A model generated the notes under the pieces. It searched no databases. It was given only the letters and a program-made list of their open reading frames with translations, and was not told where the DNA came from. From the NCBI RefSeq assembly GCF_003612125.1, contig NZ_RAWI01000060.1, positions 1 through 32,440 on the forward strand: a DNA stretch of 32,440 nucleotides, read 5' to 3'. Source of the stretch: Corallococcus praedator. Lineage in GTDB: Bacteria > Myxococcota > Myxococcia > Myxococcales > Myxococcaceae. Positions 4,915-12,835 of the stretch are shown one piece after another. The stretch's first letter is position 1; the number at the start of each line of letters is the position of its first letter. The position numbers and the translations under genes are program-made.

Positions 4915-6360
4915 ATGAACCCACTTCCGAAGAGAGTCGGTCCCTTCGTCGTCCTGGCGGTGATGCTGACGGGCCTGTGCTGGCCCGCGGTGGCCGCGGC
5001 GCAGAGCTGGTCGCTGACGAAGGAGCAGCGCCAGGCGTTCCTGCGCTACTACGCGCCGCTCATCTTCAAGCGCGCGAACGCGAACGACGGCCGGCACGGC
5101 TACGACTGGCTGACGAACTTCGACTTCGACCAGGACGGGGACTTCTCCAACAACAAGCTGCACTGGAAGCAGATCCCGCAGTACGTGGACGCGTCGCGTG
5201 CGGGGCCGAGCGCTTTCGACAGGTGGCGCATCCGGCCCACGCTCTACACGTCGCTCATCGAATACATGGACGGGGGGAAGAACCTCATCCTTGTGTATCA
5301 CCTGTATCACGCGCTGGATAAGAACGCGGCGGGCGACTACCAGCTCCACGACTGGGAGCGGGTGGAGCTGCAGGTGAAGAACGTGGTGGGCAACCCGGGC
5401 AGCGGGGAGTCCGTGGCGTACGCGGTGGTGACGCAGCACAAGCGCAACGTGGTGCGCCGGAAGGGCAGCACGGACCTCCAGTTCATGCAGACGGGCACGG
5501 GCAGCCACCTGCTCATCTGGCAGGCGGAGTGGTCCGACAAGCTCTTGGCGGCGCACGGTCAGGAGCTGCGCTTCGTCACCGAGCCGTACTCCTTCTTCGC
5601 GGGCCGGATGGCGACGGGCGGGAAGGCGGAGGCGGATGTGAACAACGACGACGGCCGCAAGAAGCTGCACATCGCGTTCGTGCCGGAGGACGACGCGGCG
5701 GCGGTGGCGGCGTTCAACGCGCAGCCGGTGCGGTACGCGACGGCGGACGCGCTGGCCACCCGCTACGACAACGGGAGCACGGCCAACTGGCCCGCGGTGA
5801 AGCGGGTGACGTACGAGCTGCAGGACATCGCGGACATCCTGCCCACGCACTGGGAGCAGGGCGGCTACGCGACGCACTGGCTGCCCTCCGCGTCGGAGAC
5901 CTTCCTGCTGGAGAGCCCCATCGTGAACGAGGCGGGACTGGCGGAGGTGAGCCCGGGGCTGCAGCGCTTCTTCACGAAGACGCGCGACATCGAGAACGAG
6001 GACGACCGCGAGGGCTACCCGTCGAAGAAGTGGTTCTTCGGCACGTTCGAGCTCAACGACAAGGCGTCGGACACGGGCGGCGGCGGGTCCAGTGTCTTCC
6101 ACGACAGGTCCTGGTCCAGCACGGTGGTGGACTCGCGGGGCCAGACGCGTGCGAGCGCCAGCGGGTACGCGGCTTCGACGAATGCGTACTGGTGGCAGCA
6201 CGACTACTTCGTGCACACGGGCGTGACGGACTCGTCGGACGGCGTGGAGCAGGGCTTCTGGCTGCCCGGCGCGTGGTACCTGCCGGCCAACGGCGGGTTC
6301 GATGGCCGCTGGGTGCAGTTGTTCGACGACCGTCCGGGCGTGGAATCCGGCGTCCGCTGA
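4915..6360 (+). CDS. Secreted protein of unknown function with an NPP1/Vps62-like HDWE motif
   Basis: A 481-residue protein with a Sec signal peptide (residues 1-30, cleavage near VAAAQS). The mature part is rich in Trp, Tyr, Asp and Asn. Residues 69-81 (FDFDQDGDFSNNK) look like a Ca-binding or metal-binding acidic loop. Residues 144-150 (LHDWERV), after a hydrophobic strand with Tyr/His (VYHLYHAL), recall the GHRHDWE-type centre of NPP1-like and Vps62-like proteins. That resemblance is motif-level only and I do not assign a function. The C-terminus has several aromatic segments (YWWQHDYFVHTG, GFWLPGAWYLP). The ATG at 4915 gives the signal peptide; no strong Shine-Dalgarno is close. It stands 81 bp after the transglycosylase and may be exported or surface-associated. 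Confidence 0.72.
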   Translation: MNPLPKRVGPFVVLAVMLTGLCWPAVAAAQSWSLTKEQRQAFLRYYAPLIFKRANANDGRHGYDWLTNFDFDQDGDFSNNKLHWKQIPQYVDASRAGPSAFDRWRIRPTLYTSLIEYMDGGKNLILVYHLYHALDKNAAGDYQLHDWERVELQVKNVVGNPGSGESVAYAVVTQHKRNVVRRKGSTDLQFMQTGTGSHLLIWQAEWSDKLLAAHGQELRFVTEPYSFFAGRMATGGKAEADVNNDDGRKKLHIAFVPEDDAAAVAAFNAQPVRYATADALATRYDNGSTANWPAVKRVTYELQDIADILPTHWEQGGYATHWLPSASETFLLESPIVNEAGLAEVSPGLQRFFTKTRDIENEDDREGYPSKKWFFGTFELNDKASDTGGGGSSVFHDRSWSSTVVDSRGQTRASASGYAASTNAYWWQHDYFVHTGVTDSSDGVEQGFWLPGAWYLPANGGFDGRWVQLFDDRPGVESGVR

Positions 6361-6907: not shown

Positions 6908-6955
6908 GCGTGAAGCGGACCGTTGTGCCAGGTCGTGGTGTCCGGCGTCGTGTCA

Positions 6956-6970
6956 TGGAACCCTGATTGC
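6956..6970 (+). promoter_or_regulatory. Sigma-54-like (-24/-12) promoter of the unknown gene at 7010
   Basis: TGGAACC, four bases, then TTGC and T: the invariant GG (6957-6958) and GC (6969-6970) are 10 nt apart, and the -12 box TTGCT is perfect. Two of seven bases in the -24 box deviate from TGGCACG. The predicted start near 6982 leaves a short leader carrying GGAGG (6996-7000) 9 nt before the ATG. Orientation and spacing fit control of the 7010 gene by RpoN and an enhancer-binding protein. Confidence 0.45.
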
Positions 6971-7009
6971 TGGTCCCGGACGTCACGCGTGGACTGGAGG
7001 CAGGGCGAC

Positions 7010-8491
7010 ATGAATCAAAGACAGAGGGCGGCGCTCCATCAATTCCTCGCGGGGCTGGGGAGGACGCTGGACCCGAACACGCCCTTGTCCAAGCAGCAAC
7101 TGGTCAGCCAGTTCAACGTCGCCCAGGCGAGCGCGAACCAGCCGCTCATCAGCGAACGTGACGCGGACATCGACATGTTGTTCCGCAAGACGGTCCAGGA
7201 CGTGGTCCGGGGCCGGAGCGCCCTGATGGGGCCCGGCGCGGAGAGCCACCACGACGTGATGATGAACTCGTGCTGGAAGGTGGCCTTCGAGAGCGCGCTC
7301 GCGGCCGTCCTGTTCCGCAACAAGGCGTTCTTCAAGGAGAACGTCCTGAGGGCGCTCGCCACCCTCAAGCCCATCGTCCTGGGAAGCCTTCGCGCGAAGG
7401 CTTCCGATACGGACAAGGCGCTCTTCCAGTGCTTCCAGGGCGATGCGAACGCCGTGCAGGCGTACAACACCCGGAAGCTGAACAATGGGCCCATCGCGTA
7501 TCCCATCGTGACGGACACGAACGTCAAGGTCATCCCGGATGCCCAGGTGGTGCCGTACTACGAGCGGGTGTTCCTGCCGGAGAACTACGAGAACTTCTTC
7601 GAGGAACAGCTCACCGCCATCTACAACTTTGGCGACTTCGTGACGCGTCCGCACAAGTTCGCGCCCAAGCCGTCCGCCTCCGCTGTTGCCCCGGTCGCGA
7701 AGCTCACGCCGGAGGGCCTCCGGTTCACGGGCAGCGATACGACCTGGCTCATCAGCCACATGATGGAGGACTGGGCGAAGTACAAGCTGGCGGGCAAGCC
7801 GGGCTGGTTCGATCCCGTCAAGGAGGGCAACCCCTCGGTTTCGCGGCAGGAGCGGCAGCACACCGGGCCTGGCCACTCGCTGACCGTGCACACCAACTAC
7901 AGCGGAAAGTACGGCGGCGTCTGGGCGGTCCAGGGCAACCGCACCATCGACGTCTCCAATCCCTACCTCGGGTATGTGGAGGACATGTTGATTCCTCCCT
8001 TCTTCAACACCACGGGTGTGGGGTTGTGGCGCCCCATGGACAGCACCGGGAATGCCCTGGATGAGGCGTCGGTGGCGATGCACCGGCTGGACATGCCGAT
8101 GATTGGCGGCATTTCCGGAGGCATGGGCACCTACCTCATCACCCTGAAGTGGGCGGGGCACAATGCGAAGCGGGAGGACCTGCTCAAGTGCTTCTACGCC
8201 GCGTACTCCGTCATGATCACCAAGGGCTATCACTCCTTCCACGAGGTCGCCGTCGTCGGGGAGAGCGTGAACCTCTGGTACAACGGCGGTGACTACCTGA
8301 GCCTGCTTCCGGATGCGTGGGTCCATGAGCTGCCCGACCTGAAGGAGCTGGTCGGCCGCTTCCAGGAGTTGCTGGGCGCGAACCAGGGCCGGAGCGAGCG
8401 GAACACCCTGGTTTTCACGAAGTATCACGACTCCGCGGAGCCCGTTCCCTTCCCGAAGCGCCACATCGGCATCTCGAAGGAAGCCCCTTGA
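7010..8491 (+). CDS. Unrecognised 493-residue protein
   Basis: The ATG at 7010 is preceded by GGAGG at 9 nt; the frame is open upstream to 6923 but without a better start. I do not recognise the family. The protein has no signal peptide or membrane helix and looks cytosolic and globular. An N-terminal helical part (1-135) contains HHDVMMNSCWKVAFESALAA (residues 80-99). The middle is a less hydrophobic region. The C-terminal part has GGISGGMGTYLITLKWAGHN (366-385), then KGYHSFHEVAVVGES (405-419) with clustered His408, His411 and Glu412, and a Trp/Tyr-rich LWYNGGDYLSLLP. These Gly-rich and HSFHE segments look like a conserved active or binding site. Third-position T and A seem somewhat more frequent than in its neighbours, by eye, which would fit an accessory gene. 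It lies behind a sigma-54-like promoter and a terminator-like hairpin. Confidence 0.82.
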   Translation: MNQRQRAALHQFLAGLGRTLDPNTPLSKQQLVSQFNVAQASANQPLISERDADIDMLFRKTVQDVVRGRSALMGPGAESHHDVMMNSCWKVAFESALAAVLFRNKAFFKENVLRALATLKPIVLGSLRAKASDTDKALFQCFQGDANAVQAYNTRKLNNGPIAYPIVTDTNVKVIPDAQVVPYYERVFLPENYENFFEEQLTAIYNFGDFVTRPHKFAPKPSASAVAPVAKLTPEGLRFTGSDTTWLISHMMEDWAKYKLAGKPGWFDPVKEGNPSVSRQERQHTGPGHSLTVHTNYSGKYGGVWAVQGNRTIDVSNPYLGYVEDMLIPPFFNTTGVGLWRPMDSTGNALDEASVAMHRLDMPMIGGISGGMGTYLITLKWAGHNAKREDLLKCFYAAYSVMITKGYHSFHEVAVVGESVNLWYNGGDYLSLLPDAWVHELPDLKELVGRFQELLGANQGRSERNTLVFTKYHDSAEPVPFPKRHIGISKEAP

Positions 8492-8667: not shown

Positions 8668-9819
8668 ATGAGCCACAGCGACGTTCCCGCCCCGAATCCA
8701 CCTTCCGACCTCAACCGCACCGCCGTGGAAATCGCCCCCGAGACCTTCTGGGTCGGGAAGCGCGAGCCCGGCGGCATCTTCTTCGCCAACCCGTACCTGC
8801 GGCGCTTTCGCGGCACGGACGTGCGCACGAAGAAACCCTCCGAGTTCAACCTCCTCATCGACCCCGGGTCGAGCAGCGACTTCTCCACCATCCACACCAA
8901 GGTGGTGTCGCTGATTGGGGGCATGGACCGGCTGTCCGCGCTCTTCGTGAACCACCAGGATCCGGACGTGGGTTCGTCGGCGGCGATCATCTCCGCGCGC
9001 TATTCGCCGCGCGCGAGCATCCTGTGCTCGGAGGACACGTGGCGGCTCATCGTCCACTTCAACCTGCCGCGCAACCGCTTCATCCCCACGGAGAAGTTCT
9101 CCAACGGGTTGAGCGTGCCCACGGGGCACAAGCTGCTGCCGGTGCCGTCGCCCTTCTGCCACTTCCGGGGCGCGGTGATGCTCTATGACCCGCACACGCG
9201 CGTGCTCTTCACCGGGGACCTGTTCGGTGGGCTCACGGACTCCAAGGCGCAGGGCCTGTGGGCGGAGGAGTCCGACTGGACGGGCATCCGGGCGTTCCAT
9301 CAGATCTACATGCCGGTGAACTCGGCGCTGGTGCGCGCGGTGGCGGCCATTCGCAAGCTCACGCCCGCGGTGGAGATGATCGCCCCGCAGCACGGCCGCG
9401 TCATCCGGGGCAAGCTGGTGCAGCAGTTCCTGGAGCGCATGGAGCGGCTCCAGGTGGGCCTGGACATCATCGATGAGGCGCAGGACCGCTCGTTCCTCCA
9501 GGCCTGGAACACGGTGGTGGACCGGGTGCTGGCGGTGGCACGCGGCTACCTGGGGGACTCCGTGGAGGCCAAGCTCAACGCGAGCGACCAGCTGTCGGAC
9601 ACGGCCCGGTTCAATGGCAAGCGGCTGGAAGTGCACCGGATGGGCAAGTGGACCCTGGAGCACGTGGTGGATGTCCTCTGCCAGGGCGAGCCGCAGGAGA
9701 TTTCAGGCCCCATCCTGGTGGAGGCCACCATCGCCGCCGCTGAATACAACCTGCCCACGCCGCACCTGGACATCGAGGGCACCGGCGCGCCGGCCCCCGT
9801 CTCCCTGCTGGAATCCTGA
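8668..9819 (+). CDS. Diiron MBL-fold protein (flavodiiron/ODP-like, no flavodoxin domain)
   Basis: A 383-residue protein. The ATG at 8668 has GAAGGA upstream. A metallo-beta-lactamase fold of the flavodiiron type covers about residues 20-260. Ligand motifs are NHQDPDVGSS (His96, Asp98, Asp100; compare H-x-E-x-D-H in flavodiiron proteins, with Glu to Asp and the last His to Val), CHFRGAVMLYD (His165), LFTGDLFGG (Asp184) and IAPQHGRVIRG (His242). The flavodoxin domain of true flavodiiron NO/O2 reductases is missing; instead a ~120-residue helical C-terminal part follows. This resembles stand-alone oxygen-binding diiron proteins used as O2 sensors rather than reductases. The Ser/Thr kinase gene begins only 17 bp after the stop, so the two are probably co-transcribed. 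A diiron or redox sensor role is an inference. Confidence 0.88.
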   Translation: MSHSDVPAPNPPSDLNRTAVEIAPETFWVGKREPGGIFFANPYLRRFRGTDVRTKKPSEFNLLIDPGSSSDFSTIHTKVVSLIGGMDRLSALFVNHQDPDVGSSAAIISARYSPRASILCSEDTWRLIVHFNLPRNRFIPTEKFSNGLSVPTGHKLLPVPSPFCHFRGAVMLYDPHTRVLFTGDLFGGLTDSKAQGLWAEESDWTGIRAFHQIYMPVNSALVRAVAAIRKLTPAVEMIAPQHGRVIRGKLVQQFLERMERLQVGLDIIDEAQDRSFLQAWNTVVDRVLAVARGYLGDSVEAKLNASDQLSDTARFNGKRLEVHRMGKWTLEHVVDVLCQGEPQEISGPILVEATIAAAEYNLPTPHLDIEGTGAPAPVSLLES

Positions 9820-9836
9820 GAGGGGAGCGGGACTTG

Positions 9837-10871
9837 GTGCGTTTGAAGGATGAGGACTCCGGGGGTGTGACGTACCTGAGCGCGGAGAAGCTGGACGCGC
9901 AGGGGTATCCACGGCCCGAGAGGACGCCGGTGTCGGACGGGACGGAGGCGACGTTCCATCAGGTGACGCCGCCGATGTCCCCGATGGGCACGTTGATTCA
10001 AGGCGCGGTGACGCCGCCTGGGCCCGCGGCCCTGGGACTGGTTCCAGGGCAGGTGGTGGCGGAGCGCTACCGGGTGGAGAAGTGGCTGGGCGTGGGAGGC
10101 ACGTCGACGGTGTACCAGGCGCTGGACCTGAAGAAGGGGCAGCGTGTGGCGCTGAAGGTGCTGGCGGTGCCCCACGCGGACGAGGCGATGGTGACGCGCT
10201 TCCGGCAGGAGGTGGAGCACGCCCGGGCGCTGGAGCACGTCAACATCCTGCATGTCTTCGACGTGGGCTGGGACGGGGAGCGGCACTACCTGACGGTGGA
10301 GTTATTGGAGGGCAGGGACCTGCGGCAGATGCTGCTCGAAGGGCGTCCCACGTTGGCCAGTGCCCTGCGGTGGCTGACGCACGCCACCGTGGCGCTGGAG
10401 CATGCGCATGCGCACGGGGTGCTGCACCGGGATGTGAAGCCCGGGAACCTCTTCATCACGCGCACCGGGGTGCTGAAGCTGATGGACTTCGGGCTCGCGA
10501 AGAGCACGCATGTGGTGGGCGCCACGGCGCAGGGCGCGACGCTGGGCACGCCGGAGTACATGGCGCCGGAGCAGGTGATGGGCACGGGGGTGTCACCGGC
10601 CACGGACCTGTATGCGCTGGGCGTGGTGGCGTATGAGCTGTTCACGGGGCAGTTGCCGTTCCGCCACGCGCAGCCCGTGCCGCTGATGTTCCTGCACGTC
10701 CAGGAGGCACCGGCGCCGCTCCGGAAGCTGCGTCCGGACCTGCCGGAGTCCTTCGAACAGCTCGTGCTGCGATTGATGCAGAAGCGGCCCGAGGACCGTT
10801 TCCCCAGTGCGACGGGCCTGCGCGCCGCGTTGGCGGAGCTGTGGCCGCAGGCGCTCAAGCAGACAGGGTGA
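9837..10871 (+). CDS. Soluble Ser/Thr protein kinase
   Basis: A 344-residue Hanks-type kinase. The GTG at 9837 is 9 nt after GGGGAG (9822-9827); the adjacent TTG at 9834 is the alternative. A ~75-residue Pro/Thr-rich, possibly phosphorylatable, N-terminal tail precedes the kinase domain (about 79-340). The domain has the P-loop GVGGTSTV, Lys107 in VALKV, Glu125, the catalytic loop HRDVKPGN with Asp199, DFG (217-219) and GTPEYMAPEQ (237-246). All catalytic residues are present. There is no transmembrane helix or sensor domain, so any input must come from a partner. The closely spaced upstream diiron MBL protein is the obvious candidate. Myxobacteria encode many such kinases. Confidence 0.95.
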   Translation: MRLKDEDSGGVTYLSAEKLDAQGYPRPERTPVSDGTEATFHQVTPPMSPMGTLIQGAVTPPGPAALGLVPGQVVAERYRVEKWLGVGGTSTVYQALDLKKGQRVALKVLAVPHADEAMVTRFRQEVEHARALEHVNILHVFDVGWDGERHYLTVELLEGRDLRQMLLEGRPTLASALRWLTHATVALEHAHAHGVLHRDVKPGNLFITRTGVLKLMDFGLAKSTHVVGATAQGATLGTPEYMAPEQVMGTGVSPATDLYALGVVAYELFTGQLPFRHAQPVPLMFLHVQEAPAPLRKLRPDLPESFEQLVLRLMQKRPEDRFPSATGLRAALAELWPQALKQTG

Positions 10872-11338: not shown

Positions 11339-11426
11339 TGTCTGGCGATGACGGTTTTGTGATGTGATTGCTGGGAAGGGGGCTCAGACGGACGGCTGAA
11401 GGTCACGTGTCGGGCCGTGCTCCGGT

Positions 11427-11432
11427 TAGACT
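11427..11432 (+). promoter_or_regulatory. Probable -10 element of selA
   Basis: GGTTAGACT ends 8 nt before the selA ATG. TAGACT fits a -10 hexamer; transcription would start at about the ATG, so the mRNA may be leaderless. No Shine-Dalgarno or clear -35 is present. Confidence 0.4.
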
Positions 11433-11440
11433 CCGGGACC

Positions 11441-12835
11441 ATGGGCGCTGCGTCGAAACCCCCCGAAGGGAAGAACGCGCTTCTGCGCAACCTTCCCTCC
11501 ATCGAACAACTCCTGCGGCGGCCGTCGCTGGAGCCCCGGCTCGCGAACCTTCCTCATGCGCGCGCGGTGGCGGCCCTGCGGCTCGCCGTCGAACGCGTGC
11601 GTGCGCGCCTGTTGGACGGTGACGCGCGGCCCTTCGAGGACGCGGACGTGGAGGCCGCGCTCGCGTCCCTGGCCACGCCGAACCTTCGGCCGGTTCGCAA
11701 TGCCACCGGCGTCGTGCTGCACACGAACCTGGGCCGCGCGCCGCTCGCTCCCGAAGCCGTGGAGCGCGTCGTCGCCGTCGCGCGGGGCTACTCCAACCTG
11801 GAATACGACCTGGACGAAGGAGAGCGCGGCAGCCGGTACGCGCCCCTCGTGGGCCTCCTGCGCACGCTCACGGGCGCGGAGGATGCGCTCGTGGTCAACA
11901 ACTGCGCGGGCGCCGTGCTGCTCGTCCTCGCCGCGCTCGCCTCCGGCCGTGAGTGTGTCGTGTCACGCGGCGAGCTTGTCGAAATCGGCGGTGGGTTCCG
12001 CGTGCCGGACGTCATGCGCCAGTCCGGCGCGAAGCTCGTGGAGGTGGGCACCACCAACCGCACCCGCCGCGCGGACTATGCCAATGCCCTGAGCCCTGAC
12101 ACCGGCCTCATCGTGAAGGTGCACCGCTCCAACTTCGCCCTCGTCGGCTTCACGGAAGAGGCTTCCCTCGCGGAACTCACCGAGTTGGGCCGGGCCCGCG
12201 GCGTGCCCGTGTTCCAGGACCTGGGCTCTGGAGCGCTCGTGCCCCTGGTCGGGCCGGGGCTCACACCGGAGCCCACGGTGGGGCACGCCATCAGCGCCGG
12301 CGCGGATGTGGTAGCGTTCTCTGGCGACAAGCTTCTGGGTGGACCGCAGGCCGGCGTCATCGTGGGCCGGAAGGACCTGCTCCAGCGCATCAAATCCCAC
12401 CCGCTCACACGCGCATTGCGTGTCGACAAGATGACGGTCGCCGCGCTGGAAGCGACGCTCGAGCTGTACCGGGATGGCCGCCCCGAAGCGGTTCCCACGC
12501 AAAGCCTGCTCGTCCAGCAGCCAGAGGTGTTGAGCGCCCGGGCTGACCGCTTGTTGAGTTTGCTCAAAGCGCACGGTGTCACAGCACGGGCGGTGTCCGT
12601 GGATGGACAGGTGGGAGGGGGGGCCATGCCGTTGGCCCGGTTGCCTTCCTACGCTTGCAGCCTCACCGTTGGAGCGCCGGAAGTATTCCTGGAACGTCTG
12701 CGCAGCGGCGAGGTGCCGGTTATTGGCAGGATCGCGGATGGCGAGGTGGTTCTCGACGTCCGGTGTCTCTCAGAGGAGGACCTGGGTGTGGTCGCGCAAT
12801 CCGTGGCGGCCGCCCGTTCGGGAAGCCAGCCATGA
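11441..12835 (+). CDS. selA: L-seryl-tRNA(Sec) selenium transferase
   Basis: A 464-residue PLP enzyme that converts Ser-tRNA(Sec) to selenocysteinyl-tRNA(Sec) using selenophosphate. The length matches SelA. Family segments are NLPSIEQLLRRP at the N-terminus, RNATGVVLHTNLGRAPL, GYSNLEYDLDEGERGSR, NNCAGAVLL, EIGGGFRVPDVM, VHRSNFALVGFTEE, FQDLGSGAL and FSGDKLLGGPQAG with the PLP lysine Lys297. All are intact. The ATG at 11441 is used because homology starts soon after; a possible upstream TTG at 11417 adds nothing. The next gene overlaps by ATGA. selB, selD and selC are not in the window, although selB commonly follows selA. Confidence 0.96.
   Translation: MGAASKPPEGKNALLRNLPSIEQLLRRPSLEPRLANLPHARAVAALRLAVERVRARLLDGDARPFEDADVEAALASLATPNLRPVRNATGVVLHTNLGRAPLAPEAVERVVAVARGYSNLEYDLDEGERGSRYAPLVGLLRTLTGAEDALVVNNCAGAVLLVLAALASGRECVVSRGELVEIGGGFRVPDVMRQSGAKLVEVGTTNRTRRADYANALSPDTGLIVKVHRSNFALVGFTEEASLAELTELGRARGVPVFQDLGSGALVPLVGPGLTPEPTVGHAISAGADVVAFSGDKLLGGPQAGVIVGRKDLLQRIKSHPLTRALRVDKMTVAALEATLELYRDGRPEAVPTQSLLVQQPEVLSARADRLLSLLKAHGVTARAVSVDGQVGGGAMPLARLPSYACSLTVGAPEVFLERLRSGEVPVIGRIADGEVVLDVRCLSEEDLGVVAQSVAAARSGSQP

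Follow-up and report, generated by a model that had tools for sequence, protein, structure and literature searches.

A predicted di-iron protein and a kinase encoded side by side

The window analyzed here (the whole stretch of DNA under study) comprises 32,440 nt of Corallococcus praedator, from contig NZ_RAWI01000060.1 of assembly GCF_003612125.1. Its forward strand carries two closely spaced genes, the first encoding a metallo-beta-lactamase (MBL) fold protein of the oxygen-binding di-iron protein (ODP) family and the second a soluble Hanks-type Ser/Thr kinase. The features of this pair are:

8668..9819, forward strand: ODP gene (ATG start, 383 aa), encoding a predicted di-iron MBL-fold sensor protein without flavodoxin
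8845..9396, forward strand: ODP/MBL domain, residues 60-243, with motifs HQDPDV, PFCHFRG, TGDLFGG and PQHG
8953-8967, 9160-9162 and 9217-9219, forward strand: ligand codons for H96, D98 and D100, for H165, and for D184, respectively
9388-9393, forward strand: codons for Q241 and H242
9460..9762, forward strand: C-terminal alpha/beta-hairpin domain, residues ~265-365, matched to no family
9799..9810, forward strand: ODP tail [VI]SL[LF], residues 378-381, a candidate kinase-docking motif
9820..9836, forward strand: 17-bp intergenic gap with a purine-rich, ribosome-binding-like stretch, GAGGGGAG
9837..10871, forward strand: gene for the soluble Hanks-type Ser/Thr kinase, with a GTG start and an in-frame TTG at 9834
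9846..9878, forward strand: conserved N-terminal kinase peptide KDEDSGGVTYL, ahead of a variable linker; candidate docking or phosphorylation motif
10068..10805, forward strand: protein kinase domain, with GVGGTSTVY loop, VALK, HRDVKPGN, DFG and APE

The GTG at 9837 is the kinase start that best fits an alignment of orthologues, in which an equivalent GTG is conserved. With this start the gap to the ODP gene is exactly 17 bp, reproducing the spacing given in the original prediction for this DNA. No terminator-like site was found between the two genes.

The first gene encodes an ODP with an additional domain

The main Pfam match of the 8668-9819 product is ODP (PF19583; E = 5.1e-49, residues 60-243), which scores 167.2 bits against a curated cut-off of 27.2; a generic Lactamase_B match falls under its own Pfam cut-off. 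When the PDB was searched with a sequence profile of the family, the best matches were 6qrq (2.4e-32) and 6qnm (1.3e-31), which are solved ODPs of Thermotoga maritima and Treponema denticola, while flavodiiron enzymes scored 6e-12 and weaker. An AlphaFold2 model of the protein (predicted local distance difference test score, pLDDT, of 90) retrieved only ODP chains at ranks 1-10 in Foldseek (E = 3.3e-19 to 1.2e-14). The top matches were 6qwo, 6qrq, 6r9n (a peroxy-diiron form) and 6qnm, and the MBL protein PqsE appeared lower in the list.

In the alignment with 6qrq and 6qnm, the metal motif set HQDPDV, H, GD and PQHG corresponds position by position. The six ligands H96, D98, D100, H165, D184 and H242 are invariant across 12 homologues and are kept in 79 of the 81 rows of a wider alignment, where the departing rows are a real H96-to-E change (locus L079) and a truncated sequence (L096). 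Q241, the neighbor of H242, is invariant in all 81 rows. We gathered this wider set by scanning with the peptide patterns PFCHFRGA and LF[TS]GDLFGG, so the invariance of H165 and D184 within it is partly selected, because both residues lie in the collecting patterns; the other ligands do not. Sequence, motif and fold thus all identify the 8668-9819 product as an ODP.

Pfam finds no flavodoxin domain in the protein, and its C-terminal ~100 residues are too short for one and match nothing credible in Pfam. Lacking flavodoxin, it is not a flavodiiron protein, and we ruled out its reading as a flavodiiron enzyme. The original prediction had listed the same six ligands, noted the missing flavodoxin and pointed to kinship with ODPs, and it was right on each count. 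It had also called the protein stand-alone, which holds as far as flavodoxin is concerned but overlooks a second domain at residues ~265-365.

That second domain is predicted to consist of a long helix, short helices, a beta-hairpin and two helices, with pLDDT mostly above 90 in models of both the full protein and the isolated domain. Nearly all of the 81 aligned sequences of the ODP subfamily carry it, and it is missing from the T. maritima and T. denticola ODPs, whose solved chains have 253-255 residues; among the loci we collected, it was found in ODP-like proteins only. Pfam gave only scattered weak matches, none of them credible, Foldseek found no PDB match at E ≤ 0.001, and VIA-align returned middling Z scores (maximum 5.8) to designed and unrelated proteins. 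A new fold does not follow from this lack of matches. The domain may act as a transmitter or in dimerization. Beyond it, the [VI]SL[LF] tail occurs in all listed ODPs of the kinase-adjacent clade and not in kinase-fused ODPs.

The partner kinase has no recognizable sensor

Pfam assigns residues 79-324 of the second product to Pkinase (E = 2.4e-48) and finds no other domain in it. The catalytic Lys, HRD, DFG and APE motifs are intact and conserved in orthologues, marking the protein as a Hanks-type kinase; the closest NCBIfam model is PknB/Stk1, with a score under the model cut-off. The polypeptide ends with its kinase domain and has no transmembrane-like stretch, which bears out the earlier description of a soluble kinase lacking a sensor. 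Its N-terminal ~75 residues diverge fast apart from two conserved stretches, the first an acidic peptide that closes with G-V-x-Y-L and the second resembling S-P-x-G-T-L-x-Q-G. Together with the ODP tail, these stretches are candidate docking motifs only. The C. praedator genome contains about 109 kinase-domain matches, yet the best paralogue of this kinase shares only 41% identity with it, one of the reasons for not ascribing the pairing to chance.

The pair is conserved where its surroundings are not

We surveyed 195 Myxococcota genomes for close ODPs (E ≤ 1e-157) and for the orthologous kinase (E ≤ 1e-120). A close ODP is present in 64 genomes (eight genus codes) and the orthologous kinase in 63, the same genomes with the sole exception of G144, where the ODP gene sits at a contig end. 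The kinase gene directly follows the ODP gene in 63 of the 64; adjacency was inspected directly at 59 of 60 loci, and the remaining four genomes come from a first sample. In that sample, which covered 16 genomes of the genus Corallococcus plus two other genera, the kinase lies directly downstream of every close ODP orthologue. No surveyed genome without a close ODP has the orthologous kinase; the best of the remaining kinase matches (E = 1e-71 to 1e-76) come from such genomes and are only 44-48% identical.

Synteny beyond the pair was examined with the proteins encoded at 4915, 6426 (MAPEG) and 6923 and with the glyoxalase, SelA, HNH and ParA genes. None of these flanking genes lies within 6 kb of the pair in Citreicoccus, Myxococcus, Pyxidicoccus, Hyalangium or Archangium, though the pair itself is intact there. 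Since the tested flanks are not kept within that distance outside Corallococcus while ODP and kinase stay together, what is conserved is the pair and not the region. Conservation of the pair had been proposed as the first check of the original prediction, and it was clearly passed. With adjacency in 63 of 64 genomes, no further domain in the kinase and the fusions described below, the ODP is stably coupled genetically to a signaling partner that has no sensor of its own.

Relatives of the ODP are fused to other kinases

In Polyangium (L055:4840-7128), Minicystis rosea (a complete genome), other Polyangiaceae and several Myxococcota metagenome-assembled genomes (MAGs), a Ser/Thr kinase and an ODP share one open frame, an architecture confirmed by Pfam in L055, L070, L084, L090 and L108. 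The order in these fusions is kinase then ODP, the reverse of the split pair. In a kinase tree the window-type kinases form one clade (support 100/100), while 14 fused kinases fall in three clades among other paralogues; the ODP tree recovers the same three fusion groups, standing apart. Forcing the window-type kinases together with the Polyangium-type kinases, the largest fusion clade, was rejected by the approximately unbiased (AU) test (log-likelihood difference 83.7, p-AU = 1.5e-5), which covered this fusion clade only. The non-grouping of the kinases in this test, together with the reversed gene order, rules out a single ancestral kinase-ODP fusion that later split.

From the separate clades in both trees, the coupling of a kinase to an ODP of this subfamily probably arose four times. 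A possible fifth is found in a Nitrospirota MAG (L086), where a kinase with a cyclic nucleotide monophosphate (cNMP)-binding domain lies downstream of an ODP gene across a larger gap. Long N-terminal extensions in L071, L087 and L097 contain no Pfam domain besides MBL/ODP and were not counted as fusions. A second ODP-like gene, in which APHHG replaces APQHG, directly follows the kinase-ODP fusion of another locus (L073:7012-8184).

Other ODP relatives have other signaling neighbors. In L053 (3448-5828), sister to the kinase-paired clade, a protoglobin-histidine kinase is encoded 75 bp after the ODP, so that non-haem and haem gas-binding domains are encoded side by side. L077 has a GAF-GGDEF protein downstream of its ODP, and L085 and L091 have response regulators upstream of theirs. 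Such varied partners are expected of a swappable input module. At many of the ODP-relative loci inspected, no signaling neighbor was seen. In L079 (5311-7089) a response-regulator receiver is fused to the ODP, which is a natural metal-site variant reading SEGDPDV for NHQDPDV (first His to Glu). Four tandem ODP genes lie on one contig in L058 (2906-8411), a record titled Acidimicrobiia MAG UBA2766; despite that title, the L058 ODP used in our tree groups among Myxococcota ODPs.

A split sensor kinase is the favored interpretation

The family, ligands and fold of the ODP, the conservation of the pair, the fusions and the swapping of partners are all computed here. Iron occupancy, the ligand sensed, contact of the two proteins and the direction of signaling are inferred. 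We consider it probable that the ODP and the kinase together make up a split sensor kinase, with the di-iron protein as its input subunit. In such a system the ODP would hold a non-haem di-iron site and, having no flavodoxin to support turnover of O2 or NO, would use it as a sensor for O2 (or for NO, for Fe(II) availability or for redox state). On ligand binding, the ODP domain and the domain C-terminal to it would shift in conformation or in oligomeric state, and this change would set the activity of the partner kinase. Our results fit a scheme in which O2, NO or redox state may feed into Ser/Thr phosphorylation, and the natural fusions lend independent support to the idea that ODP and kinase would work together.

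Several points weigh against this interpretation. Some relatives that are 50-70% identical to the ODP (for example L052, L063 and L066) have no kinase nearby, and conserved ligands alone do not prove that the protein holds iron. Adjacency and fusion leave the direction unset, and the ODP might just as well be a substrate of the kinase. The L079 receiver-ODP protein, whose first ligand histidine is lost, has its ODP at the usual position of an output domain and may place it on the output side.

The main rival is regulation of the ODP by the kinase, which the receiver fusion turns into a real alternative, though we judge it unlikely. The ODP would then be a di-iron effector tuned by phosphorylation, for instance a redox enzyme, or one that scavenges O2 or NO, drawing its electrons from a separate redoxin. 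Flavodiiron enzymes have the same fold and most of the ligands, and in L077 the gene immediately upstream of the ODP codes for a thioredoxin-like protein. However, a scan of window genes beside the pair turned up neither a flavodoxin nor a redoxin, the closest solved structures belong to sensors rather than to flavodiiron enzymes, and the several kinds of signaling output found within the same ODP subfamily better fit an input module.

A hydrolase or phosphatase role for the MBL protein, in opposing the kinase or in making or breaking a small-molecule signal, is very improbable. Its fold is common to hydrolytic MBL proteins, and PqsE is among the Foldseek matches. Hydrolytic MBL enzymes have the metal motif HxHxDH, but here the motif is HQDPDV and the family-level match is to ODP, with Lactamase_B under its cut-off; we ruled this reading out because the metal motif is not of the hydrolytic type. 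Least probable of all is mere co-transcription of two functionally unrelated genes, which chance could produce where Ser/Thr kinases are as abundant as they are in myxobacteria (109 matches in C. praedator), but chance adjacency is ruled out by the co-occurrence in 63 of 64 genomes, by the pair being kept while the tested flanks were scrambled, and by the separate kinase-ODP fusions.

With the ODP as the input to the kinase, these soil bacteria would likely switch a Ser/Thr kinase on or off in response to oxygen or a similar signal. A broader proposal, which we hold to be evenly balanced, is that the pair belongs to a Ser/Thr kinase family gated directly by a non-haem di-iron gas sensor. Such a family would have arisen in several separate assembly events within Myxococcota, as one split pair and three fusion types, and perhaps once more as a pair in Nitrospirota. 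A C-terminal transmitter domain, so far undescribed, would connect its iron site with the output.

Other genes of the window

A gene at 11417-12835 encodes a SelA-type L-seryl-tRNA selenium transferase, which suggests selenocysteine use in the C. praedator genome. No tRNA genes were found in the window; selB and tRNA-Sec were not sought beyond it. Two large open frames, at 6923-8491 (522 aa) and 59-2035 (658 aa), have no Pfam matches, and the 522-aa frame was found next to the pair at no locus of the synteny test.

Comparison with known systems

To our knowledge, most myxobacterial Ser/Thr kinases have no known input. If the ODP is the input here, O2 or NO sensing at a non-haem di-iron site would be coupled straight to Ser/Thr phosphorylation in bacteria. 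The system would also lie in organisms open to experimental genetics, since a Myxococcus xanthus strain carries the pair (locus L043). In the natural fusions, gating of a kinase by an iron site can be examined within one polypeptide. Our literature search, which excluded the original description of ODPs and does not establish priority, found neither the Ser/Thr kinase coupling (split pair and several fusions) nor the extra C-terminal domain.

Flavodiiron proteins (ROO, FprA, flavorubredoxin) share the fold of the MBL di-iron domain and most metal-ligand positions with the ODP of the window. The flavodiiron ligand pattern is HxExDH, whereas here it is HxDxD; flavodoxin is absent here, and the matches are weaker. 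PknB-like Hanks-type kinases likewise have a kinase domain with the catalytic motifs, but the window kinase has no PASTA repeats, transmembrane segment or fused sensor.

The closest parallels are ODPs in signaling. Muok et al. 2019 is reportedly the source that the TREND paper summarizes on ODPs fused to, or encoded beside, signaling proteins. The ODPs of T. maritima and T. denticola (PF19583), which sense O2 in chemotaxis, have the MBL fold and the HQDPDV, H, GD and PQHG motifs and, like the ODP described here, no flavodoxin. In T. denticola the ODP is coupled to a receptor without transmembrane and sensing modules (PMC7666581), so that a sensorless methyl-accepting chemotaxis protein there corresponds to a sensorless kinase here. 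The differences are that the partner there is a chemoreceptor and here a Ser/Thr kinase, that an extra C-terminal domain of ~100 residues is present here, and that identity in the structural alignment is ~28%. In the portion of the TREND account available to us, ODPs are described as oxygen and iron sensors taken up by a variety of signal transduction pathways through operon or fusion, which the range of partners seen here resembles, and Ser/Thr kinases are not named among these in that portion (PMC7319448). ODPs that feed signaling are already known, and it is their coupling to a kinase that looks new.
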